From positions 1-26,778 of IMG/VR virus record IMGVR_UViG_3300034375_002340: a DNA stretch of 26,778 nucleotides; one strand, given 5' to 3'. The notes under the pieces were generated by a model. The model was not told the origin of the DNA. It made no database searches and saw only the letters and a program-made list of their open reading frames with translations. This stretch comes from a virus. A program made the position numbers and the translations under genes. Shown here in pieces: positions 15,402-25,891 of this stretch (its first letter is position 1; each line of letters begins with the position of its first letter).

Positions 15402-16925
15402 CTAAACATTAGAACTAAAAGCATTGCTAAGTATATGTTGTATAACGGAAACTGTAAAAGAATTTCCTAAAGCCTTGTACCTTTGAGTATTTGATATACC
15501 CTCAGTATAGCCTATTGGAAATGTTTGTAATTTCTCACATTCTGTAGGTGTTAACTTTCTATAAGTTGGTTGATCCATAACTTTAGCAACATTACTTGCA
15601 ACTATTGTTGGTGATTTTCCATCTTGACTATAAACTCGATCAGCCATATCAAACTTACCATCTCTAACTTCAAAACAAACTATTGACTTGTCAAACTCAT
15701 CAGTCTTAATCACTAACAAATCTTTTAACCTAAACCAAATGTCTTCACTAGGTATTGCAAAACTAGAATCAGTCCTAAACCAATGTTCAACTTTTGTAAC
15801 TGGAACATCTAAAAGATCAGCAAGATTTTTGTTAGTCAAAATTGTCATTTTTTTGTGATCCCGTAATGTCTGTTGCAATTTAGGGATGTCAACTTCATAT
15901 TTCCTTACTTTAACTTTTTGTGGAATGATTAAAACTTTTGGCTCCCGATGTCCACCACCCATAGTAGTTAATGTTGGACTCTTTCCAGAATCAGCATATA
16001 CCCTCTTAATTGATTCATTACCATTAATGTCTGTAGCATTAGCAATATGATGACATTGTGCCTTAGAATCGAAATCTCGGAGTTCACATGGACGATTAAA
16101 TATTAATTGTCTACGACCTTTCTCGAAATAAGATTTTGGATTGCCACCTTTATAATAATTAGCATCAATACAATAACTTTTATCTCGATCAACCCAACCT
16201 ATTACATTGTAAGGAACACCTTTGTGCATAGAGTAAGTCAAAGTATTTGATTTTTGATCTTCATATCTTGCTCTAGCTTTTAGCCTTGGAAGATCTTTTG
16301 TCTTGCTTTCACTTCTTAACATAAAAGCCATTTCTTTTTCAGATAAAGTATCTTCACAACTGTAATCAAGGACATCACGCAACAACAATCCTTGATCTTC
16401 TGGCTGATCAATACCCTCAATGTTAGTCCAATAAAATCTCTTACGATTTTGGGCAGATACTAAAGCTGAATTAATCAGATGTTTATTAACTTTTCCAAGG
16501 GCTTCTTCTGTATGAAAAGTAATGTACTCTTCAAACTCATTTTTCATTCTGACATTTTCCATTAAGAATTTAGCGTTTGGATTTTTCTCAAGTACTAACT
16601 TCATAACATCAAGCATTGTCCAGAATAACATTCCTCGTGGATCTTTATCGCCTTGTTTCAATCCCGCATTTGACCATGCTTGACATGGAAAACCACCGAC
16701 AACAAGATCAATTGAAGACCAATCTAAATTTTGCCTTGTAATTAAATGCCATGTTTCCCAGTTTTTAACATCCCCCAACATAATTGTTGAGGGGTAATTT
16801 TTGAGAGTTGTTTTCATTGCATATTCATCAATCTCTGAGGCATAGTAATTGTTAACTTTAACACCTAAACGATCTAAAGCAACTTGAGTTCCAGAGATTC
16901 CATCAAACAGACTGAGTACATTCAT
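15402..16925 (-). CDS. dcm-like: C5-cytosine DNA methyltransferase with an inserted HTH-like segment
   Basis: All core motifs are present: LSLFDGISG (I, residues 4-12), SEID (30-33), LGDVKNW (50-56), GGFPCQAWS (IV, Cys81 nucleophile), MENV (VI, 122-125), AQNRKRFYW (VIII, 158-166) and LTPTECEKLQTFP plus ALGNSF (IX-X, 458-490). The protein transfers a methyl group from S-adenosylmethionine to cytosine C5 and probably protects phage DNA from host restriction. No cognate nuclease is nearby. The 507-residue length exceeds simple Dcm enzymes. The target-recognition part (about 300-450) contains an HTH-like stretch, LTNKNLADLLDVPVTKVEHW (363-382). It also has a repeated short motif, RVYADSGKSPT (309-319) and RVYSQDGKSPT (430-440). 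The start overlaps the upstream stop by one base. Confidence 0.93.
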   Translation of the reverse strand: MNVLSLFDGISGTQVALDRLGVKVNNYYASEIDEYAMKTTLKNYPSTIMLGDVKNWETWHLITRQNLDWSSIDLVVGGFPCQAWSNAGLKQGDKDPRGMLFWTMLDVMKLVLEKNPNAKFLMENVRMKNEFEEYITFHTEEALGKVNKHLINSALVSAQNRKRFYWTNIEGIDQPEDQGLLLRDVLDYSCEDTLSEKEMAFMLRSESKTKDLPRLKARARYEDQKSNTLTYSMHKGVPYNVIGWVDRDKSYCIDANYYKGGNPKSYFEKGRRQLIFNRPCELRDFDSKAQCHHIANATDINGNESIKRVYADSGKSPTLTTMGGGHREPKVLIIPQKVKVRKYEVDIPKLQQTLRDHKKMTILTNKNLADLLDVPVTKVEHWFRTDSSFAIPSEDIWFRLKDLLVIKTDEFDKSIVCFEVRDGKFDMADRVYSQDGKSPTIVASNVAKVMDQPTYRKLTPTECEKLQTFPIGYTEGISNTQRYKALGNSFTVSVIQHILSNAFSSNV

Positions 16926-17417: not shown

Positions 17418-17440
17418 ACCTAAAGTGTAGAACGATAAAT

Positions 17441-17502
17441 TAATAACCATAGGTTGTTAAATTAATAACCATAGGTTATAAAGTTTTTAACCATAGGTTA
17501 AA
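17441..17502. repeat. Three 22-bp-spaced iterons
   Basis: AACCATAGGTT occurs at 17445-17455, 17467-17477 and 17489-17499, exactly 22 bases apart, and the flanking bases are similar (TTAATAACCATAGGTTNTNAA). Each core is itself near-palindromic (AACC/GGTT). The two-turn spacing would put all sites on one helix face. Such iterons serve as initiator sites at replication origins or as operators; which of these applies here cannot be told from the sequence. Confidence 0.7.
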
Positions 17503-17545: not shown

Positions 17546-17551
17546 GGTTTA

Positions 17552-17623
17552 AATTATTTAGGTTATTTAGGTTATTTAGGTTATTTAGGTTATTTAGACT
17601 GTTTAGGTTATTTAAGTCTTTTA
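17552..17623. repeat. 9-bp direct repeat array (GGTTATTTA)
   Basis: Eight successive 9-base units are present. Exact GGTTATTTA units start at 17561, 17570, 17579, 17588 and 17606; degenerate units are at 17552 (AATTATTTA), 17597 (GACTGTTTA) and 17615 (AGTCTTTTA). The repeats resemble initiator-protein boxes and lead directly into a very AT-rich tract. Three further degenerate units recur at 19817-19843. Confidence 0.75.
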
Positions 17624-17639
17624 GGATCAGCCAGTAATG

Positions 17640-19261: not shown

Positions 19262-19290
19262 AAAGGGCTTTTAATTAAGCCCTTTTTTTT
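19262..19290 (+). terminator. Intrinsic terminator after the gp88 operon
   Basis: AAAGGGCTT (19262-19270) pairs with AAGCCCTTT (19277-19285) around a six-base loop. A run of eight T begins at 19283. It closes the rightward operon. The flanking stem bases also allow weaker termination on the other strand. Confidence 0.85.
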
Positions 19291-19414: not shown

Positions 19415-19668
19415 ATTATCTTAATACTAATAGTTATCTAATTAATTTAATAGCCTTTAAAACTAAAATATAAAGCTTTAAAACTGTATTAGTTTTTAAT
19501 TGGTTTTAGATCTGTTATTAATTCAAATGATATAAAAATATAAAAAATATTCTATATCACACTTTTTTTTATTCAAATTCTAATATTTAATATTATTTTT
19601 CTAGCTATTATTTTTTTACTGGCAATAAATATTATTTATTCTTAATAAAATTTCGGATCTTGTTATTA
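19415..19668. other. AT-rich non-coding stretch
   Basis: No gene, strong hairpin or exact repeat is seen here. The sequence is dominated by A/T runs and lies between the terminator and the 11-bp repeats, so it may be an unwinding or spacer segment. Confidence 0.3.
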
Positions 19669-19740
19669 ACATACTTACTAACAAGTTGTTAACAAGTTTT
19701 CCACATAGTTACTCACAAGTTATTAACAAGTTATTAACAG
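19669..19740. repeat. 11-bp repeats with a DnaA-box-like site
   Basis: Units of the form ACAAGTTATTA begin at 19681, 19692, 19715 and 19726, with degenerate copies at 19669 and 19703. The second unit reads into TTTTCCACA (19697-19705), one base from the E. coli DnaA box TTATCCACA. An eleven-base period is close to one helix turn. This could be a second initiator-binding or origin site. Confidence 0.55.
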
Positions 19741-19758
19741 GGGCCCACCCACCTGTTA
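19735..19758. other. GC-rich hairpin TAACAGG/CCTGTTA
   Basis: TAACAGG (19735-19741) pairs with CCTGTTA (19752-19758) around a ten-base GC-rich loop. It directly abuts the 11-bp repeats and stands out in an AT-rich context. Possible roles include a single-strand initiation hairpin or a terminator for leftward transcripts; neither is proven. Confidence 0.4.
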
Positions 19759-19816
19759 TTAAAACTTTTTGCTTAGGCCTATACCCACTACACAAAAAAC
19801 GAAATTTGAAAAAAAA

Positions 19817-19843
19817 AGTTATTTAGATCATTTAGGTGTTATA
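19817..19843. repeat. Second, degenerate cluster of the 9-bp repeat
   Basis: AGTTATTTA, GATCATTTA and GGTGTTATA follow each other without gaps and resemble the GGTTATTTA units at 17552-17623. The last unit contains the -10 of the late promoter. A shared binding protein for origin and late promoter is inferred. Confidence 0.4.
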
Positions 19844-19864
19844 CTTAACTGAGAATAATTATCA
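19838..19864 (+). promoter_or_regulatory. Extended -10 late promoter overlapped by a Fur-like box
   Basis: TGTTATACT (19837-19845) is an extended -10. Just after it lies TGAGAATAATTATCA (19850-19864), which matches the 7-1-7 Fur operator TGATAATnATTATCA at 13 of 14 fixed positions. The start of transcription would fall inside the box, at about 19852, where a repressor would block it. No -35 is good, as usual for extended -10 promoters. The terminase start (19877) has no ribosome site. Confidence 0.45.
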
Positions 19865-19876
19865 TTTGCATTTAAT

Positions 19877-20341
19877 ATGTCAGAAAGACCACCACCTTTA
19901 GCACCTCAGACACCTTTTGAAGATAAAGAGGATAAGCCTAAGAAAAGAGGTAATCCTAATTTTTATAAAGGGATGCCATCTTTAAATCCTGCAGGTAAAC
20001 CTAAAGGTACGATGAATAAGTATGCAGCTCTATCTAGAGAACTCATGAATGAGAACGCTGTAGAGATCGTAGCAACGGTATTAGCAAAAGCAAAAGAAGG
20101 TGATGTGCATTGTTTGAAGATGTGTATGGATAGAATTTTACCAGTTCAAAAGGCTATAGATCCAAATAGAACTAAAAATGATGCCCAAGTTATTATTAAT
20201 GTAGCTTCTATTGAATCTATTGAACAAAAAGCTAGTGAATATAACGAGGCTGAGTTAGTAGAGCCAGAAGAAAAGAGTGATGATGAAGTTGTAGCTACAA
20301 TAAACACTTCACCTATAGCTGATAAATTTAAAGATGTCTGA
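19877..20341 (+). CDS. Terminase small subunit-like protein
   Basis: The N-terminal region has NPNFYKGMPSLNPAGKPKGT followed by MNKYAAL, a DUF5681-like basic motif. Next is a helix with GDVHCLKMCMDRILP (about 75-89), the part most like small terminases and packaging-associated proteins of environmental phages. Its acidic C terminus could contact the large subunit. It would recognise phage DNA and regulate the large terminase, whose start overlaps its stop by eight bases. Its own start has no ribosome site and lies just behind the late promoter. Identification is by motif and position; the DNA-binding fold is not directly visible. Confidence 0.7.
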   Translation: MSERPPPLAPQTPFEDKEDKPKKRGNPNFYKGMPSLNPAGKPKGTMNKYAALSRELMNENAVEIVATVLAKAKEGDVHCLKMCMDRILPVQKAIDPNRTKNDAQVIINVASIESIEQKASEYNEAELVEPEEKSDDEVVATINTSPIADKFKDV

Positions 20342-21584
20342 ACTTAACATTGATTTGCATCCAGCACAGCTGCAGATCTTTAATTCACAAAAACGATTTA
20401 AAATAGTCGCAGCAGGAAGACGATTTGGAAAGTCCTACCTTTCTGCTTGGTTATTACTCATTAACGCTATACAAAGCGAGTCTAAAGATGTCTTTTATGT
20501 AGGGCCTACTTTTCAACAAGCCAAAGATATTATGTGGGCAATGTTAAAAGACTTAGGTAAAGACCTCATAGCACAAGCCCATGAGAATACAGCAGTACTC
20601 ACTTTGATCAATGGAAGAAAAATCTATTTAAAGGGCAGCGATCGGCCCGACACGCTTCGCGGCGTTGGCTTGGCATACTGCGTACTTGATGAGTATGCTT
20701 CGATGAAGCCTCAAGTCTGGGAACAGATCATAAGACCTACGCTTTCAGATGTGCAAGGTGGTGCTTTATTTATCGGAACTCCTGCCGGGAAGAATCATTT
20801 TTACGATTTGTATAGAGATGCGTTTGAAGATGACGATTGGGATGCGTTTCAATTTACATCAACCGATAATCCGTTTATACCTGACAGCGAAATAAAGGCT
20901 GCTAGTAAAACGATGTCATCTATGTCATTTAGGCAAGAATTTGAGGCATCTTTTGAAACTAACTCTGGCGGCATATTTAAAGAAGAGTGGTTTGAGAAAT
21001 CTGAGGAGCCAGAAGAAGGCTCGTATGTTATAGCAGTCGATCCTGCTGGTTTTGAGTCTATCGAAAAAGAACGCAATTTAAAAAGATCAAGATTAGACGA
21101 AACGGCTATTGCGATAGTGAAAATAGATCGTGATAAGTGGTGGGTCAAAGACATACTACATGGTCGGTGGAATGTAAAAGAAACCGCCAAAAAAATTCTT
21201 TCATCTGCGATGAAGGTAGAAGCAGCAACCGTTGGCATCGAAACGGGATCACTAAGAAACGCTATATTACCTTACTTGGAAGATGAGATGCGTATCGCAG
21301 GACGATGGGTAACTATTGTTGAGCTGCGGCACGGTGGAAAAAAGAAAACAGAACGCATTACTTGGGCATTACAAGGCCGAATGGAACATGGCCAGGTTAG
21401 CTTTAATGACAAAAAAGATTGGAAAGAGTTTCTAGGTCAGCTTAATGACTTTCCAAATCACTTAGCACATGATGACCAACTCGATGCTTTAGCCTATATA
21501 GACCAGGTGAGTGTAGCAGACTTTGCACACAGCATTGAATTGGCTGATGATTGGGAGGTACTGGATGATGTCGCTGGATATTAA
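20334..21584 (+). CDS. terL: Terminase large subunit (packaging ATPase and nuclease)
   Basis: The ATPase half has a classical Walker A, AAGRRFGKSYLS (26-37), a glutamate-bearing Walker B, CVLDEYASM (116-124), and motif III in ALFIGTPAGKNHFYDLY (144-160). The RNase-H-like nuclease half has YVIAVDPAG (Asp236), VGIETGSLRN (Glu303) and HDDQLDALAYI (Asp380/381 and Asp384). This is the full two-domain engine that drives DNA into the capsid and cuts it to length. The 416-residue size is on the compact side. The start overlaps the small subunit gene. Just after it is a short unknown gene, and then the portal protein, the engine's docking ring. Confidence 0.95.
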   Translation: MSELNIDLHPAQLQIFNSQKRFKIVAAGRRFGKSYLSAWLLLINAIQSESKDVFYVGPTFQQAKDIMWAMLKDLGKDLIAQAHENTAVLTLINGRKIYLKGSDRPDTLRGVGLAYCVLDEYASMKPQVWEQIIRPTLSDVQGGALFIGTPAGKNHFYDLYRDAFEDDDWDAFQFTSTDNPFIPDSEIKAASKTMSSMSFRQEFEASFETNSGGIFKEEWFEKSEEPEEGSYVIAVDPAGFESIEKERNLKRSRLDETAIAIVKIDRDKWWVKDILHGRWNVKETAKKILSSAMKVEAATVGIETGSLRNAILPYLEDEMRIAGRWVTIVELRHGGKKKTERITWALQGRMEHGQVSFNDKKDWKEFLGQLNDFPNHLAHDDQLDALAYIDQVSVADFAHSIELADDWEVLDDVAGY

Positions 21585-21819
21585 AGACATATTTGAAGAA
21601 GATATGACTGAGCAAGAAATGATAGAGTTGCTGCAATATAGTGCGGATGATACAACTCTAGCAGAAAGATACATTGTTGCTTGTCAAATTATTAGTAATT
21701 TAACAAAAGATATACCTGATGATATAACCGAAAGAGAAGAGATGGTAGATCTGACAATTTGTAAAATGTTAGTAGATGGTTTAATTGCAGTTGAAGAAGT
21801 AAATCGGTCAATTCATTAA
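21565..21819 (+). CDS. Hypothetical protein between terminase and portal (84 aa)
   Basis: Starting at ATG 21565 (or 21568), after the ideal site GGGAGGTACTGG, the protein is MMSLDIKDIFEEDMTEQEMI and continues as a mainly helical, acidic chain with a hydrophobic middle (LAERYIVACQIISNL) and a second helix near the end (LTICKMLVDGLIAVEEV). An earlier in-frame ATG at 21523 sits inside the terminase gene and is not supported. The helical pattern suits a small adaptor or a packaging helper. It overlaps the terminase end by 20 bases. Function is unknown. Confidence 0.6.
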   Translation: MMSLDIKDIFEEDMTEQEMIELLQYSADDTTLAERYIVACQIISNLTKDIPDDITEREEMVDLTICKMLVDGLIAVEEVNRSIH

Positions 21820-21820
21820 A

Positions 21821-21865
21821 TGAGAACGATTATCACTTGCAATTAAGAATGATTACTGTTAAAAT
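21821..21865 (+). promoter_or_regulatory. Second Fur-like box with a downstream promoter
   Basis: TGAGAACGATTATCA (21821-21835) shares most bases with the box at 19850, and the likeness continues through TTGCA and TTAA in both copies. TTGCAA (21837-21842) and TAAAAT (21860-21865) are 17 bases apart, and the latter is preceded by TGT, so a promoter starts right after the box. It would drive the portal gene. In this copy the box is upstream of the -35, unlike the first copy. Confidence 0.5.
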
Positions 21866-21889: not shown

Positions 21890-21907
21890 ATGAACCCCTA
21901 TGAATAA
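21890..21907 (+). promoter_or_regulatory. Five-codon leader mini-ORF overlapping the portal start
   Basis: GGAG at 21880-21883 is well placed for ATG 21890, which opens MNPYE and stops at 21905-21907, just beyond the portal ATG (21900). The portal ATG itself has no proper ribosome site (16 bases from GGAG). Coupling by re-initiation would explain how the portal is translated. Confidence 0.4.
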
Positions 21908-23861
21908 TCAAGAAAACAAATATCAAGCACTCGCTAGTTGGTTAAGTTATCGTCTTGAAGGGTGGAGAACTCATAGAAATATTAATTACATTCCTATGTG
22001 GGATGAATATTACAGATTGTGGAGAGGTATTTGGTCTGCTGAAGATAAAACTAGAGCAAATGAAAGATCAAAACTTATATCTCCAGCATTACAACAAGCA
22101 GTTGAGTCATCTGTTGCTGAATTAGAAGAGGCAACTTTTGGCAGGGGAAAATGGTTTGATATACAAGATGATTATTTAGACCAGGATCCTAGTGATGCTG
22201 AGTATGTGCGTAATTTATTGCAAGAAGATTTAGAAAAAACAGGTTGTAAAGATGCAATTTGTGAAGTTTTTTTGAATAGTGCTATATATGGCACAGGTAT
22301 TGGCAAGATTGTGGTCAAACAAACTATTGAAAGGGCCCCGGTAGAAGAAACTATTGAAGGCACTATGGCTACAACTCGTACTGTTGTTGAATACCCAGCT
22401 ATTGATGTTCATGTCGAGCCTATATCCCCTAAAGAATTCTTAATTGATCCATCAGCTAACTCAATTAACGATGCTTTGGGGGTTGCTCACGAGGTTATTA
22501 AACCTAGATACCATGTTGTAGAAGGAATACGCTCTGGCATTTATAGAGATGTACCTCTTGATGGTGATTATGAGTCAGTTAAATTCGGTTATGACCCAGA
22601 AACTAAACAAGCAGACGAATCTGACTCTGTAAAAATATGTGAATATTGGGGTTTAGTTCCAAAAAGATTTTTAAAGCCAAGTCAAGACAAAGATGACTTT
22701 GAATATGACAAATCTAGTGCAAATGAATTAGTAGAAGCAGTTGTTACAATGTGTAACGACCAACATATTCTTAGAGTTGAAGAAAATGCGTTTATGATGG
22801 AAGATAGACCATTTATTTCTTATCAACACGACATCGTGCCAAACAAATTTTGGGGTAGGGGTGTTTGTGAAAAGGGATATAATCCGCAAAAAGCATTAGA
22901 TGCTGAAATGAGAGCAAGAATTGATTCTCTGGCATTAACGACTACACCAATGATGGCCGCAGACGCTAGTCGACTACCACGAGGAGTTAAGTTTGAAGTG
23001 AGAGCAGGAAAAACTGTTCTGACCAATGGAAATCCACGAGAAGCTATCATGCCACTCGACATGGGTACAACAGATCCTAATACATTCAATCAGGTTGCCT
23101 CACTTCAAAACATGATTCAGATGGGAACTGGCTCTGCTGATAGTGCTTCACAAGGTGGTGAAACTGCTAGTGGCATGTCTATGATGCAAAGTGCTGCAAT
23201 CAAACGACAAAAGCGTACTTTAATGAATTTTCAAAACACATTCCTTATACCTTTGATAAACAAGGCAATGTGGAGAAAGATACAGTTTGATGTAGACAGG
23301 TATCCTGTAAACGATTACAAATTTATCCCGTATTCAACTATGGGGATTATGGCTAAAGAGTTAGAAATGACTCAAATGGTACAAATGCTACAAACCATAC
23401 CGCAAGATTCACCTGCATTTAATGTTATTTTGTTAGCATTGTTTCAAAACTCATCAATACATAATAGAGATCAGATTGTTAATGCTCTAATGCAAGGTGG
23501 TGAGCCAGATCCACAAATGGAAGAAATGCAACAAATGGGTATGCAAATAGAAATGCAGCAATTACAGGCTAATGTACAGAAAACTTTAGCTCAAGCTAAA
23601 GAAGAAGAGGCACAAGCTATATTACATCAAGCTGATGCTATGAGCAAACAACCAAATGATATAGATGTGCAAGAAAAGATACTTAAATTGCAAAAAGATT
23701 CTATAGCTATCGAAAAAGGCATTGCAGATATTGAAAATATGCGTTCTGAAACTGCCAGAAACATACCAGAAGTAGAACATTTGCAATCTGAAACAATTTT
23801 AAACCTAGCAAAAGCTAGAGAAGCAGGAAAGAAAACACAGGTAACTAATACCGTACAATAA
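21900..23861 (+). CDS. Portal protein (podovirus type)
   Basis: This 653-residue protein would form the dodecameric vertex ring through which DNA enters and leaves. It begins with a helical region (LSYRLEGWRTHRNINYIPMW) and a Trp-rich DEYYRLWRGIWSAEDKTR stretch. The body follows with YGTGIGKIVV and PKEFLIDPSANSINDA, and then a loop-rich region (GSADSASQGGETASGMSMMQ) typical of portal proteins. The long C-terminal coiled coil (about 537-640, MQQMGMQIEMQQLQANVQK) could be the barrel that reaches into the head, as in P22 gp1. It sits in the usual order: terminase, portal, scaffold, capsid. Confidence 0.85.
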   Translation: MNNQENKYQALASWLSYRLEGWRTHRNINYIPMWDEYYRLWRGIWSAEDKTRANERSKLISPALQQAVESSVAELEEATFGRGKWFDIQDDYLDQDPSDAEYVRNLLQEDLEKTGCKDAICEVFLNSAIYGTGIGKIVVKQTIERAPVEETIEGTMATTRTVVEYPAIDVHVEPISPKEFLIDPSANSINDALGVAHEVIKPRYHVVEGIRSGIYRDVPLDGDYESVKFGYDPETKQADESDSVKICEYWGLVPKRFLKPSQDKDDFEYDKSSANELVEAVVTMCNDQHILRVEENAFMMEDRPFISYQHDIVPNKFWGRGVCEKGYNPQKALDAEMRARIDSLALTTTPMMAADASRLPRGVKFEVRAGKTVLTNGNPREAIMPLDMGTTDPNTFNQVASLQNMIQMGTGSADSASQGGETASGMSMMQSAAIKRQKRTLMNFQNTFLIPLINKAMWRKIQFDVDRYPVNDYKFIPYSTMGIMAKELEMTQMVQMLQTIPQDSPAFNVILLALFQNSSIHNRDQIVNALMQGGEPDPQMEEMQQMGMQIEMQQLQANVQKTLAQAKEEEAQAILHQADAMSKQPNDIDVQEKILKLQKDSIAIEKGIADIENMRSETARNIPEVEHLQSETILNLAKAREAGKKTQVTNTVQ

Positions 23862-24142: not shown

Positions 24143-24946
24143 ATGAGTGAAAGTATAGTAGTAGATGAAGCACCTTTACAAGAGGAACCGATAACAGAAA
24201 CACAGGAAGAACAAGTAACACAAGAGGCACAGACGGAGGAAACTTCACAATCTGAACCTGAGATTCCTGCAAAGTATGCTGGTAAATCAATAGCAGAGGT
24301 TATTGAAATGCAACAAGAGGCTGAAAAGCTAATGAGTAGACAGGCTGATGAACTCGGCCAACAAAGAAAGTTAGTTCAAAGTTTACTTGATGCACAAAAT
24401 AAAGTAACTGAAACTACTCCACCAGAAGAACCTGTAATACAGGAGGAGAACTTCTATGACGATCCAGTTTCGGCTGTGAATAAAGCCATAGAAAACCACC
24501 CTGATGTTATAAAAGCCAGAGAAGAAAGAATGGGTAACATGCAGAAGCATAATTTGGAAAATTTAGATAAAGCGTATCCAGATTGGCAGAAAACTGTTGC
24601 AGATGCTTCTTTTCAGAAATTTATTGGTGATAGTGCAACCAGAACAGAAATGTTTCGTAAAGCTGATACTGAATATAGATCAGATTTAGCAATTGAACTT
24701 TTTGATTGGTATTCTCAGACACAAATGTCTGGGGCCACACAAGAAGCAGTAGCTGAAGAAAAATCTAAGATTGAGAAACAGATGAAACAAACAAGTTCTG
24801 AAAGCAGGACATCATCAGATTCTGTAGGTGGGAAGAAGATTTACCGTAGAGCTGATTTAATCAATCTACAGGTAACAGATCCTAACCGATACGCATCGTT
24901 GGCAGATGAGATTCAGTCAGCATACGCAGAGGGTAGGGTTAAATAA
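24143..24946 (+). CDS. Scaffolding protein
   Basis: The 267-residue protein is acidic, Glu/Gln-rich and largely helical. It has a disordered N terminus (PLQEEPITETQEEQVTQEAQ), a helix VIEMQQEAEKLMSRQADELG, a middle helical region (ENHPDVIKAREERMGNMQKH) and a more basic C-terminal part (KKIYRRADLINLQVTDPNRY). Charge and order fit internal scaffolds that guide capsid assembly and leave before DNA entry. The start has GGAGAACACA, and its place just before the capsid gene supports the call. No protease domain is seen. Confidence 0.8.
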   Translation: MSESIVVDEAPLQEEPITETQEEQVTQEAQTEETSQSEPEIPAKYAGKSIAEVIEMQQEAEKLMSRQADELGQQRKLVQSLLDAQNKVTETTPPEEPVIQEENFYDDPVSAVNKAIENHPDVIKAREERMGNMQKHNLENLDKAYPDWQKTVADASFQKFIGDSATRTEMFRKADTEYRSDLAIELFDWYSQTQMSGATQEAVAEEKSKIEKQMKQTSSESRTSSDSVGGKKIYRRADLINLQVTDPNRYASLADEIQSAYAEGRVK

Positions 24947-24970: not shown

Positions 24971-25891
24971 ATGGCTTTGGGTACAAACCAAGTAACGACT
25001 GCTGTAGCTAATAACTTCATCCCCGAGTTGTGGAGTGATGAAGTAATAGGTGCATATAAGTCAAATCTAGTGGTTGCTAATTTAGTTACTAAGCTATCTC
25101 ACAAAGGTAAAAAAGGCGATACTATCTATATCCCTGTACCTGCGAGAGGAAGTGCAAGTGTTAAAGCAGCAAACACACAAGTAACATTATCAGCAGCTAC
25201 CAACACAAAGGTAACTGTGTCTATCGACAAGCACTACGAATACTCAAAATTAATTGAGGACATCGCAGAGGTACAAGCACTAGCAAGTATGCGTAAGTTT
25301 TATACTGACGATGCTGGTTATGCTCTTGCCAAGCAAGTAGATACTGATTTGTTTGCTCTTATAGAGGGTTTACAAGGTGGTACAGTAGGCGGTACTGGTG
25401 CAGCAGCATTTGAAAATGCTGTTATCGGTGGTAACGGTTCTACTGCATATACTGGTAATTCAACTAATGCCTCTGACATTACTGATGCTGGTATTCGTAG
25501 AATGCTTCTAACTCTTGATGATGCAGATGTACCGATGGACAATCGTGTAATGGTAGTTCCACCAATCTGTGCTAATGACATGCTTGGAATCAACAGATTT
25601 ACAGAGCAACAGTTTATTGGTTCTGGTGATGCTATCAAGACTGGTAAGATTGGACAGATTTATGGTGTAGATATTTATATCTCATCTAACTGCCCAACTC
25701 CTGCGGGTACTGACAGAGCAGGTGTACTAATGCACAAAGATGCTCTAGTTCTAGCGGAACAGGTGGGCGTCAGGAGCCAGACTCAATATAAACAGGAGTA
25801 TTTAGGTGATCTATTCACTTCAGATACTATTTATGGAGTTGCAGAACTTCGTAATGATGCTGGTGTTGCGTTTGTAGTTCCAGGATCTTAA
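24971..25891 (+). CDS. Major capsid protein
   Basis: This 306-residue protein would form the shell. It opens with MALGTNQVTTAVANNFIPEL and WSDEVIGAYKSNLVVANLV, then shows the long strand and loop region KGDTIYIPVPARGSASVKA and the helix-rich YSKLIEDIAEVQALASMRKF. The middle has Asp/Ala-rich DDADVPMDNRVMVVPPICAND, and the end has TSDTIYGVAELRNDAGVAFVV. This arrangement is that of HK97-fold capsid proteins in environmental short-tailed phages (P22 coat-like and N4-like in character). The ribosome site TAGGAGAAGTAAA is strong, and a TATAAT lies just before it. No N-terminal protease site is seen. Confidence 0.9.
   Translation: MALGTNQVTTAVANNFIPELWSDEVIGAYKSNLVVANLVTKLSHKGKKGDTIYIPVPARGSASVKAANTQVTLSAATNTKVTVSIDKHYEYSKLIEDIAEVQALASMRKFYTDDAGYALAKQVDTDLFALIEGLQGGTVGGTGAAAFENAVIGGNGSTAYTGNSTNASDITDAGIRRMLLTLDDADVPMDNRVMVVPPICANDMLGINRFTEQQFIGSGDAIKTGKIGQIYGVDIYISSNCPTPAGTDRAGVLMHKDALVLAEQVGVRSQTQYKQEYLGDLFTSDTIYGVAELRNDAGVAFVVPGS

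Follow-up and report, generated by a model that had tools for sequence, protein, structure and literature searches.

Two late promoters of an uncultured, apparently marine phage, one before its terminase genes and the other before its portal, scaffold and capsid genes, carry a 21-bp sequence that is identical to host Fur boxes, stands in a defined geometry with the promoter elements and is conserved in relatives of the phage. From these sequence comparisons we put at about 70% the probability that both are true Fur boxes, through which iron-loaded Fur (Fe-Fur) of the host represses the packaging operon and the portal-scaffold-capsid operon. Because the boxes stand at packaging and capsid promoters and have been kept in relatives, the virus probably ties the assembly of its particles to the iron state of the infected cell.

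Gene layout of the window

The window, by which we mean the whole stretch of DNA analysed (IMG/VR record IMGVR_UViG_3300034375_002340), is 26,778 bp long with a G+C content of 34%, and may be less than a complete phage genome. Its early block, with genes for a DnaB-type helicase, RusA, HNH and a C5-methylase, runs leftward and faces a rightward late block in which the terS, terL, portal, scaffold-like and capsid genes follow one another (Table 1). An intrinsic terminator closes the upstream rightward transcript and separates it from terS, which therefore needs a promoter of its own. No recognisable lysogeny genes are present in the window phage. The portals of the closest isolates are only 21–28% identical to that of the window, and megablast returned no match; the phage appears to be marine, a judgement based on its relatives and on the bacteria with which it shares the box rather than on sample data.

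Table 1. Promoter elements, predicted Fur sites and genes around the late promoters, in window positions
Feature	Position	Strand	Remarks
Intrinsic terminator	19262..19285	+	closes the upstream rightward transcript
Extended −10 of the predicted terS promoter, TGT TATACT	19837..19845	+	TG 19837–38, TATACT 19840–45; kept in close relatives
Site 1, 31-bp repeat TTAACTGAGAATAATTATCATTTGCATTTAA	19845..19875	+	holds predicted 21-bp Fur box TGAGAATAATTATCATTTGCA at 19850–19870
terS, small terminase subunit	19877..20341	+	assigned by position and family DUF5681
terL, large terminase subunit	20334..21584	+	phrog_2, 3.5e-48
83-aa ORF without assigned function, terL-portal interval	21568..21819	+	stop codon extends into the first bases of repeat 2
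Site 2, 31-bp repeat TTAAATGAGAACGATTATCACTTGCAATTAA	21816..21846	+	holds predicted 21-bp Fur box TGAGAACGATTATCACTTGCA at 21821–21841
−35 of the portal promoter, TTGCAA	21837..21842	+	within the Fur box extension
Extended −10 of the portal promoter, TGT TAAAAT	21857..21865	+	TAAAAT 21860–65; predicted transcription start ~21872
Portal protein gene	21900..23861	+	phrog_1216, 2.6e-79
Scaffold-like gene	24143..24946	+	downstream of the portal promoter; phrog_19777, 4.5e-5
Major capsid protein gene	24971..25891	+	downstream of the portal promoter; phrog_267, 2.6e-62

Two repeats with predicted Fur boxes

The cores of the two sites, TGAGAATAATTATCA at 19850–19864 and TGAGAACGATTATCA at 21821–21835, match the 7-1-7 Fur consensus TGATAATnATTATCA (GATAAT hexamers) at 13 and 12 of the 14 fixed positions, the same counts that a sequence-only reading of this DNA had given. 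That reading had also noticed a likeness reaching beyond the core, and it does: the similarity extends over 31 bp, with 26 of 31 bases identical between the repeats. Against GATAATGATAATCATTATC, on the better strand, site 1 agrees at 15 and site 2 at 14 of 19 positions. No third copy of the 31-bp pattern occurs in the window with up to three mismatches allowed, and none occurs in shuffled sequences. The core by itself is moderately to weakly informative, since a scan of the window with up to three mismatches returns 12 places against 6.2 expected, among them an intragenic one at 16150 with two mismatches. It is the 21-bp form with TTGCA that is decisive, not the 7-1-7 core alone.

A matrix learned from bacterial iron genes

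As the 7-1-7 core is only weakly informative, we built a matrix from DNA that contains no phage sequence at all. Genes for Fe3+-binding proteins of the sfuC/fbpA type were chosen through protein similarity in 30 SAR11 genomes, and a 21-bp motif, TGAGAATGATTATCAATCGCA, was learned de novo from the DNA upstream of these 30 genes. SAR11 has a gene for Fur in its genome and induces sfuC 16-fold when iron is limiting (PMC2864753). Scored with this matrix, the two best places in the window are 19850–19870 (24.7 bits) and 21821–21841 (22.3 bits); the next non-overlapping place reaches −1.2 bits, more than 20 bits below both, and the best score in 200 simulated order-2 Markov windows is 15.8 bits. The concern attached to the sequence-only reading, that a matrix might score as well at other places, is thus set aside, there being no comparable place in the window.

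As a positive control, a softened version of the matrix was applied to the fep-ent region of E. coli (18 kb). The top three places fall in the divergent intergenic regions fepB-entC (624836, 13.4 bits), fepA-fes (612653, 11.4 bits) and fepD-entS (622207, 9.7 bits), all of which are known Fur-controlled promoters. On the same softened scale the phage sites score 24.6 and 24.3 bits, above the E. coli fep/ent places and above the box of the E. coli prophage gene nohA (19.0).

The 21-mer in bacterial genomes

We scanned 84,980 prokaryote genomes for TGAGAAYNATTATCAYTTGCA, found at least 80 loci and read the neighbouring genes by eye from their N-terminal sequences. Among the matches listed, the exact 21-mer precedes iron genes in Pelagibacteraceae, SAR86 and other Gammaproteobacteria: it stands before the gene for the Fe3+-binding protein in many Pelagibacteraceae single cells, before genes for TonB-type receptors in SAR86, and before bfd (L171, L203) and feoB (L179, L215), with one Fur-family gene beside it (L198), while a few of these matches are intragenic or lie beside non-iron genes. 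The 21-mer of site 1 recurs letter for letter in a member of the Pelagibacteraceae (L184), before an iron ABC transporter gene. The TTGCA extension therefore belongs to the cellular Fur box; what had looked like an oddity of the phage sites is part of the box, TTGCA included, before bacterial iron-uptake genes.

Promoter geometry

The sequence-only reading had laid the first site over the likely start of the terminase transcript and the second next to the portal promoter, and both placements hold. At site 1 the extended −10 is followed after 4 nt by the box, which covers the predicted transcription start and ends 6 nt before the terS ATG. The box of site 2 abuts or overlaps the TTGCAA −35, which is followed after 17 nt by TAAAAT with a TG ahead of it. 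Relative to the predicted transcription starts, the portal box, which merges with the −35, lies at about −44 and the terS box at about +5, an arrangement that fits a repressor excluding polymerase and does not fit an activator at both promoters. The promoters themselves are supported by their conservation in relatives, described below; a generic promoter scan of the window (23 found against 24.0 expected) adds nothing of significance.

Three other kinds of element were considered and rejected. A sigma-54 promoter with TTGCA as its −12 element would need a GG 10 nt upstream of the GC, and there is none. For a promoter of a phage RNA polymerase, no such polymerase is recognised among the window ORFs searched, and what is conserved is an extended −10 of the sigma-70 type. 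An RNA hairpin or riboswitch finds no Rfam match, and the palindrome pairs at only 6/7 and 5/7 positions.

Conservation in phage relatives

Relatives were collected through the portal on 80 contigs, of which 79 are usable; L016 was left out, as its match starts inside the gene. A site of at least 16 bits precedes the portal gene in 30 of the 79 relatives, 69–92 nt from the portal start, or 240 nt in L044, whose portal start may be misplaced. Upstream of terS such a site is found in 17 relatives. Close relatives thus carry the sites at the same places; their absence there would have counted against the sequence-only reading. Elsewhere in the 535 kb of relatives only two sites reach 16 bits, with about 0.8 expected by chance in all, and one of these two is an overlapping array that a close relative carries in its divergent early control region (L008:4155–4187, TGAGAATCGTTATCATTATCATTATCATTTGAA).

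The portal site occurs in 17 distinct versions, and in all 17 the box is fused to the −35 and lies 15 nt from an extended −10, the latter in the form TGTTAAAAT, TGTTATAAT or TGTTATACT. The geometry in relatives is TTGCAW, 17 nt and TAAAAT, the −35 being the tail of the Fur box. Across these versions the mean column entropy is 0.24 bits in the site and 1.0 bits in the spacer to the −10, and the main variable columns of the box (4, 7, 11 and 16) include the G/T and C/T variation of cellular boxes. At terS the order in relatives is the reverse of that at the portal: the extended −10 TGTTATACT comes before the box, and the box before the start codon. The true pattern is found in 74 stretches, against no viral contig for a reversed control pattern.

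On the portal tree the presence of the site requires about five changes, four of which are forced by well-supported branches, so the portal site has been gained and lost. More distant members of the family are without the sites (48 of the 78 tree rows), which indicates that the control is dispensable, and many box-less relatives keep a good −10, for example TATAAT.

Regulator and host

No Fur homologue (PF01475) is found in the Pfam-scanned ORFs of the window, and no iron gene is recognised among the window ORFs searched. Given that no Fur-family gene is recognised there, the regulator would be that of the host. A portal relative is found in none of 397 SAR11 genomes and in none of 136 genomes of the SAR116-type order; weak matches of 23–28% identity are present once among 203 genomes of the SAR86 order (26%) and four times among 385 Alphaproteobacteria. 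The best hint of a host is a portal of about 55–56% identity in a gammaproteobacterial genome (G1098, contig 2, L403). This contig is a member of the wider phage family, with 61% identity in terL, 55% in the portal and 80% in the capsid protein; it lacks the Fur-box site, and its place in a gammaproteobacterial assembly could be a binning error.

Proposed mechanism and its alternatives

Under the mechanism that we propose, Fe(II)-Fur of the infected proteobacterium would bind each box and block sigma-70 RNA polymerase, at terS by occupying the transcription start just downstream of the extended −10, and at the portal by masking the −35, which forms part of the box. Both late operons, that of the terminase and that of portal, scaffold and capsid, would be held down in an iron-replete cell, and would be released once iron drops or once replication has produced more phage DNA copies than there is Fur to bind them. 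We infer the binding, repression in preference to activation, the response to iron and a benefit to the phage from the sequences compared.

The nature of the reader is the point on which the sequence-only reading had wavered, between host Fur and a phage regulator with a Fur-like site. Host Fur is strongly favoured by the present comparison, because the site with its extension equals the motif of iron-uptake genes and no Fur homologue appears in the scanned ORFs. A phage-encoded regulator could still be hidden among the several window ORFs that have no assigned function, including several early ORFs with no Pfam match, and another host regulator of the Fur superfamily (Zur, Mur or Irr) might be suggested by the ZnuA-like genes found behind the 21-mer among the matches listed (L157, L162). 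Nevertheless, the genes behind the 21-mer among these matches are mostly iron genes, and the motif itself was learned from an iron transporter; together with the empty search for a Fur-family protein, this makes a reader other than Fur very unlikely. Should the reader be Fur, it could act on the portal promoter as an activator, so that iron-replete cells would favour capsid synthesis. The site centre at about −44 resembles the position of activators adjoining the −35, and activation by direct Fur binding is reported for hilD of Salmonella (PMC3089636). At terS, however, the site lies over the transcription start, a position from which Fur could not activate, and at site 2 a bound Fur dimer would reach into the −35; we hold activation to be highly improbable.

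Another possibility is that the block is mere promoter sequence, a −35 with an upstream element, and that its likeness to a Fur box is incidental. The TTGCA of site 2 is indeed the −35, and its 15-nt spacing to the −10 is invariant, but the terS 21-mer has no −10 at 17 nt downstream and sits after its promoter, box-less relatives retain a −10, and the 15-bp palindrome ahead of the −35 corresponds to no sigma-70 element and fits a Fur matrix learned independently, which leaves this explanation scarcely credible. Titration is a further alternative, and it would time the late genes within the repressor model too. Here the boxes would be decoys that soak up host Fur as the genomes multiply and thereby switch on host iron uptake, the control of terS and portal being secondary or a replication-coupled timer for late genes. 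Other phage contigs (L091, L115, L135) carry multiple Fur-like boxes in non-coding DNA with no obvious target, and L008 has its overlapping boxes in the divergent early region. On the other hand, the boxes of the window are few and keep a fixed geometry at two late promoters, which is needless for a pure decoy, and with two sites per genome only a small pool of Fur could be drawn off; we regard the decoy as unlikely.

Precedents and wider meaning

Iron control of packaging genes had been called unusual in the sequence-only reading, a fair description, although not in the sense of lacking precedent: nohA, the packaging gene of the Qin cryptic prophage of E. coli, has been published as a target of Fur, and Table 4 of PMC3688515 counts it among the Fur-repressed genes with reference to Chen 2007 and Vassinova 2000. 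We located its box, TGATAATGATTATCA, at K-12 1636593–1636607, about 225 bp upstream of the gene. The resemblance lies in a Fur box upstream of a gene homologous to the terminase small subunit. nohA, however, belongs to a remnant lambdoid prophage, with one box beside a cos-like region and none known at the portal, whereas the window phage is unrelated and marine and has boxes at two late promoters.

In the lambdoid phages phi80, 434, mEp237, HK225 and their relatives a Fur box lies at cosQ or beside it, ahead of Nu1/terS. A Fur-box-like sequence occurs near a terminase gene in up to 91 phage records, and in enterobacterial phage and prophage contigs Fur boxes lie 136–241 bp before several different TerS-like ORFs, Nu1 and others; such contigs include L092, L104, L120, L349, L356, L371 and L381, as well as phages phi80 (L408) and 434. 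A gene of phi80 is annotated as 'putative Fur-regulated protein'. The lambdoids thus share with the window a Fur-box-like sequence near the terminase gene, but theirs is at the packaging signal cosQ, while the window shows no sign of a cos site and its boxes overlap promoters.

Host control of phage genes by nutrient regulators is described for cyanophage S-PM2d, where host PhoBR controls phage genes (PMC10976474). There too, a host nutrient regulator acts at core-gene promoters (DNA polymerase) of a lytic marine phage, but through phosphate and PhoB instead of iron and Fur, and packaging genes are not the target. Phage-borne DNA under host Fur is likewise represented by sitABCD, which coliphages carry with an upstream Fur box (PMC6969025), and by Shiga-toxin expression (PMC5552940); both are cargo useful to the host or lysogen, unlike phage assembly genes. 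In the open-access literature searched we found no paper on Fur control of packaging genes in a lytic phage, and the main text of the E. coli Fur pan-regulon paper (PMC10164565) makes no mention of phages. What is new here is an unrelated marine family with two promoters per genome, of the terminase and of the portal-capsid genes, and the conserved fusion of Fur box and −35.

Considered jointly, nohA, the cosQ boxes of lambdoids and the family of the window suggest a general phage strategy, where nohA alone might have passed for a peculiarity of Fur regulation in E. coli. A more far-reaching and tentative idea is that phages have recurrently adopted host Fur as a master switch for assembling virions, unrelated phages (this marine family, the lambdoids with boxes at cosQ/Nu1, and other marine phages) having placed boxes at their terminase or portal genes independently. 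If this were true, packaging would wait for a drop in free iron or for the titration of Fur by replicated phage DNA, and titration would be a host-repressor clock replacing a phage late-gene activator. The control proposed for the window phage would by itself place the assembly genes of a marine phage family, apparently a common one, under a host iron sensor, and would link virus production to iron, a nutrient limiting in large ocean areas.

Other repeats and conserved elements

At least two close Fur-like boxes in non-coding DNA are present at L091:1959–2024, L115:6438–6481 and L135:3376 and on L347 and L374, which makes these loci candidates for Fur titration. The divergent early region of the window has other repeats where L008 has its overlapping boxes: about seven 9-bp tandem repeats TTATTTAGG and three 22-bp repeats TAATAACCATAGGTT, at 17548–17625 and 17436–17501, which may serve as operator or origin elements. 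A candidate replication origin lies directly upstream of the terS promoter, at 19662–19762, where iteron-like repeats AACAAGTTATTAAC surround a DnaA-box-like TTTTCCACA. Box-less relatives, too, conserve ACAAAAAACGAAATTTGAAAAAAAA, the sequence found upstream of the terS promoter at 19791–19815.
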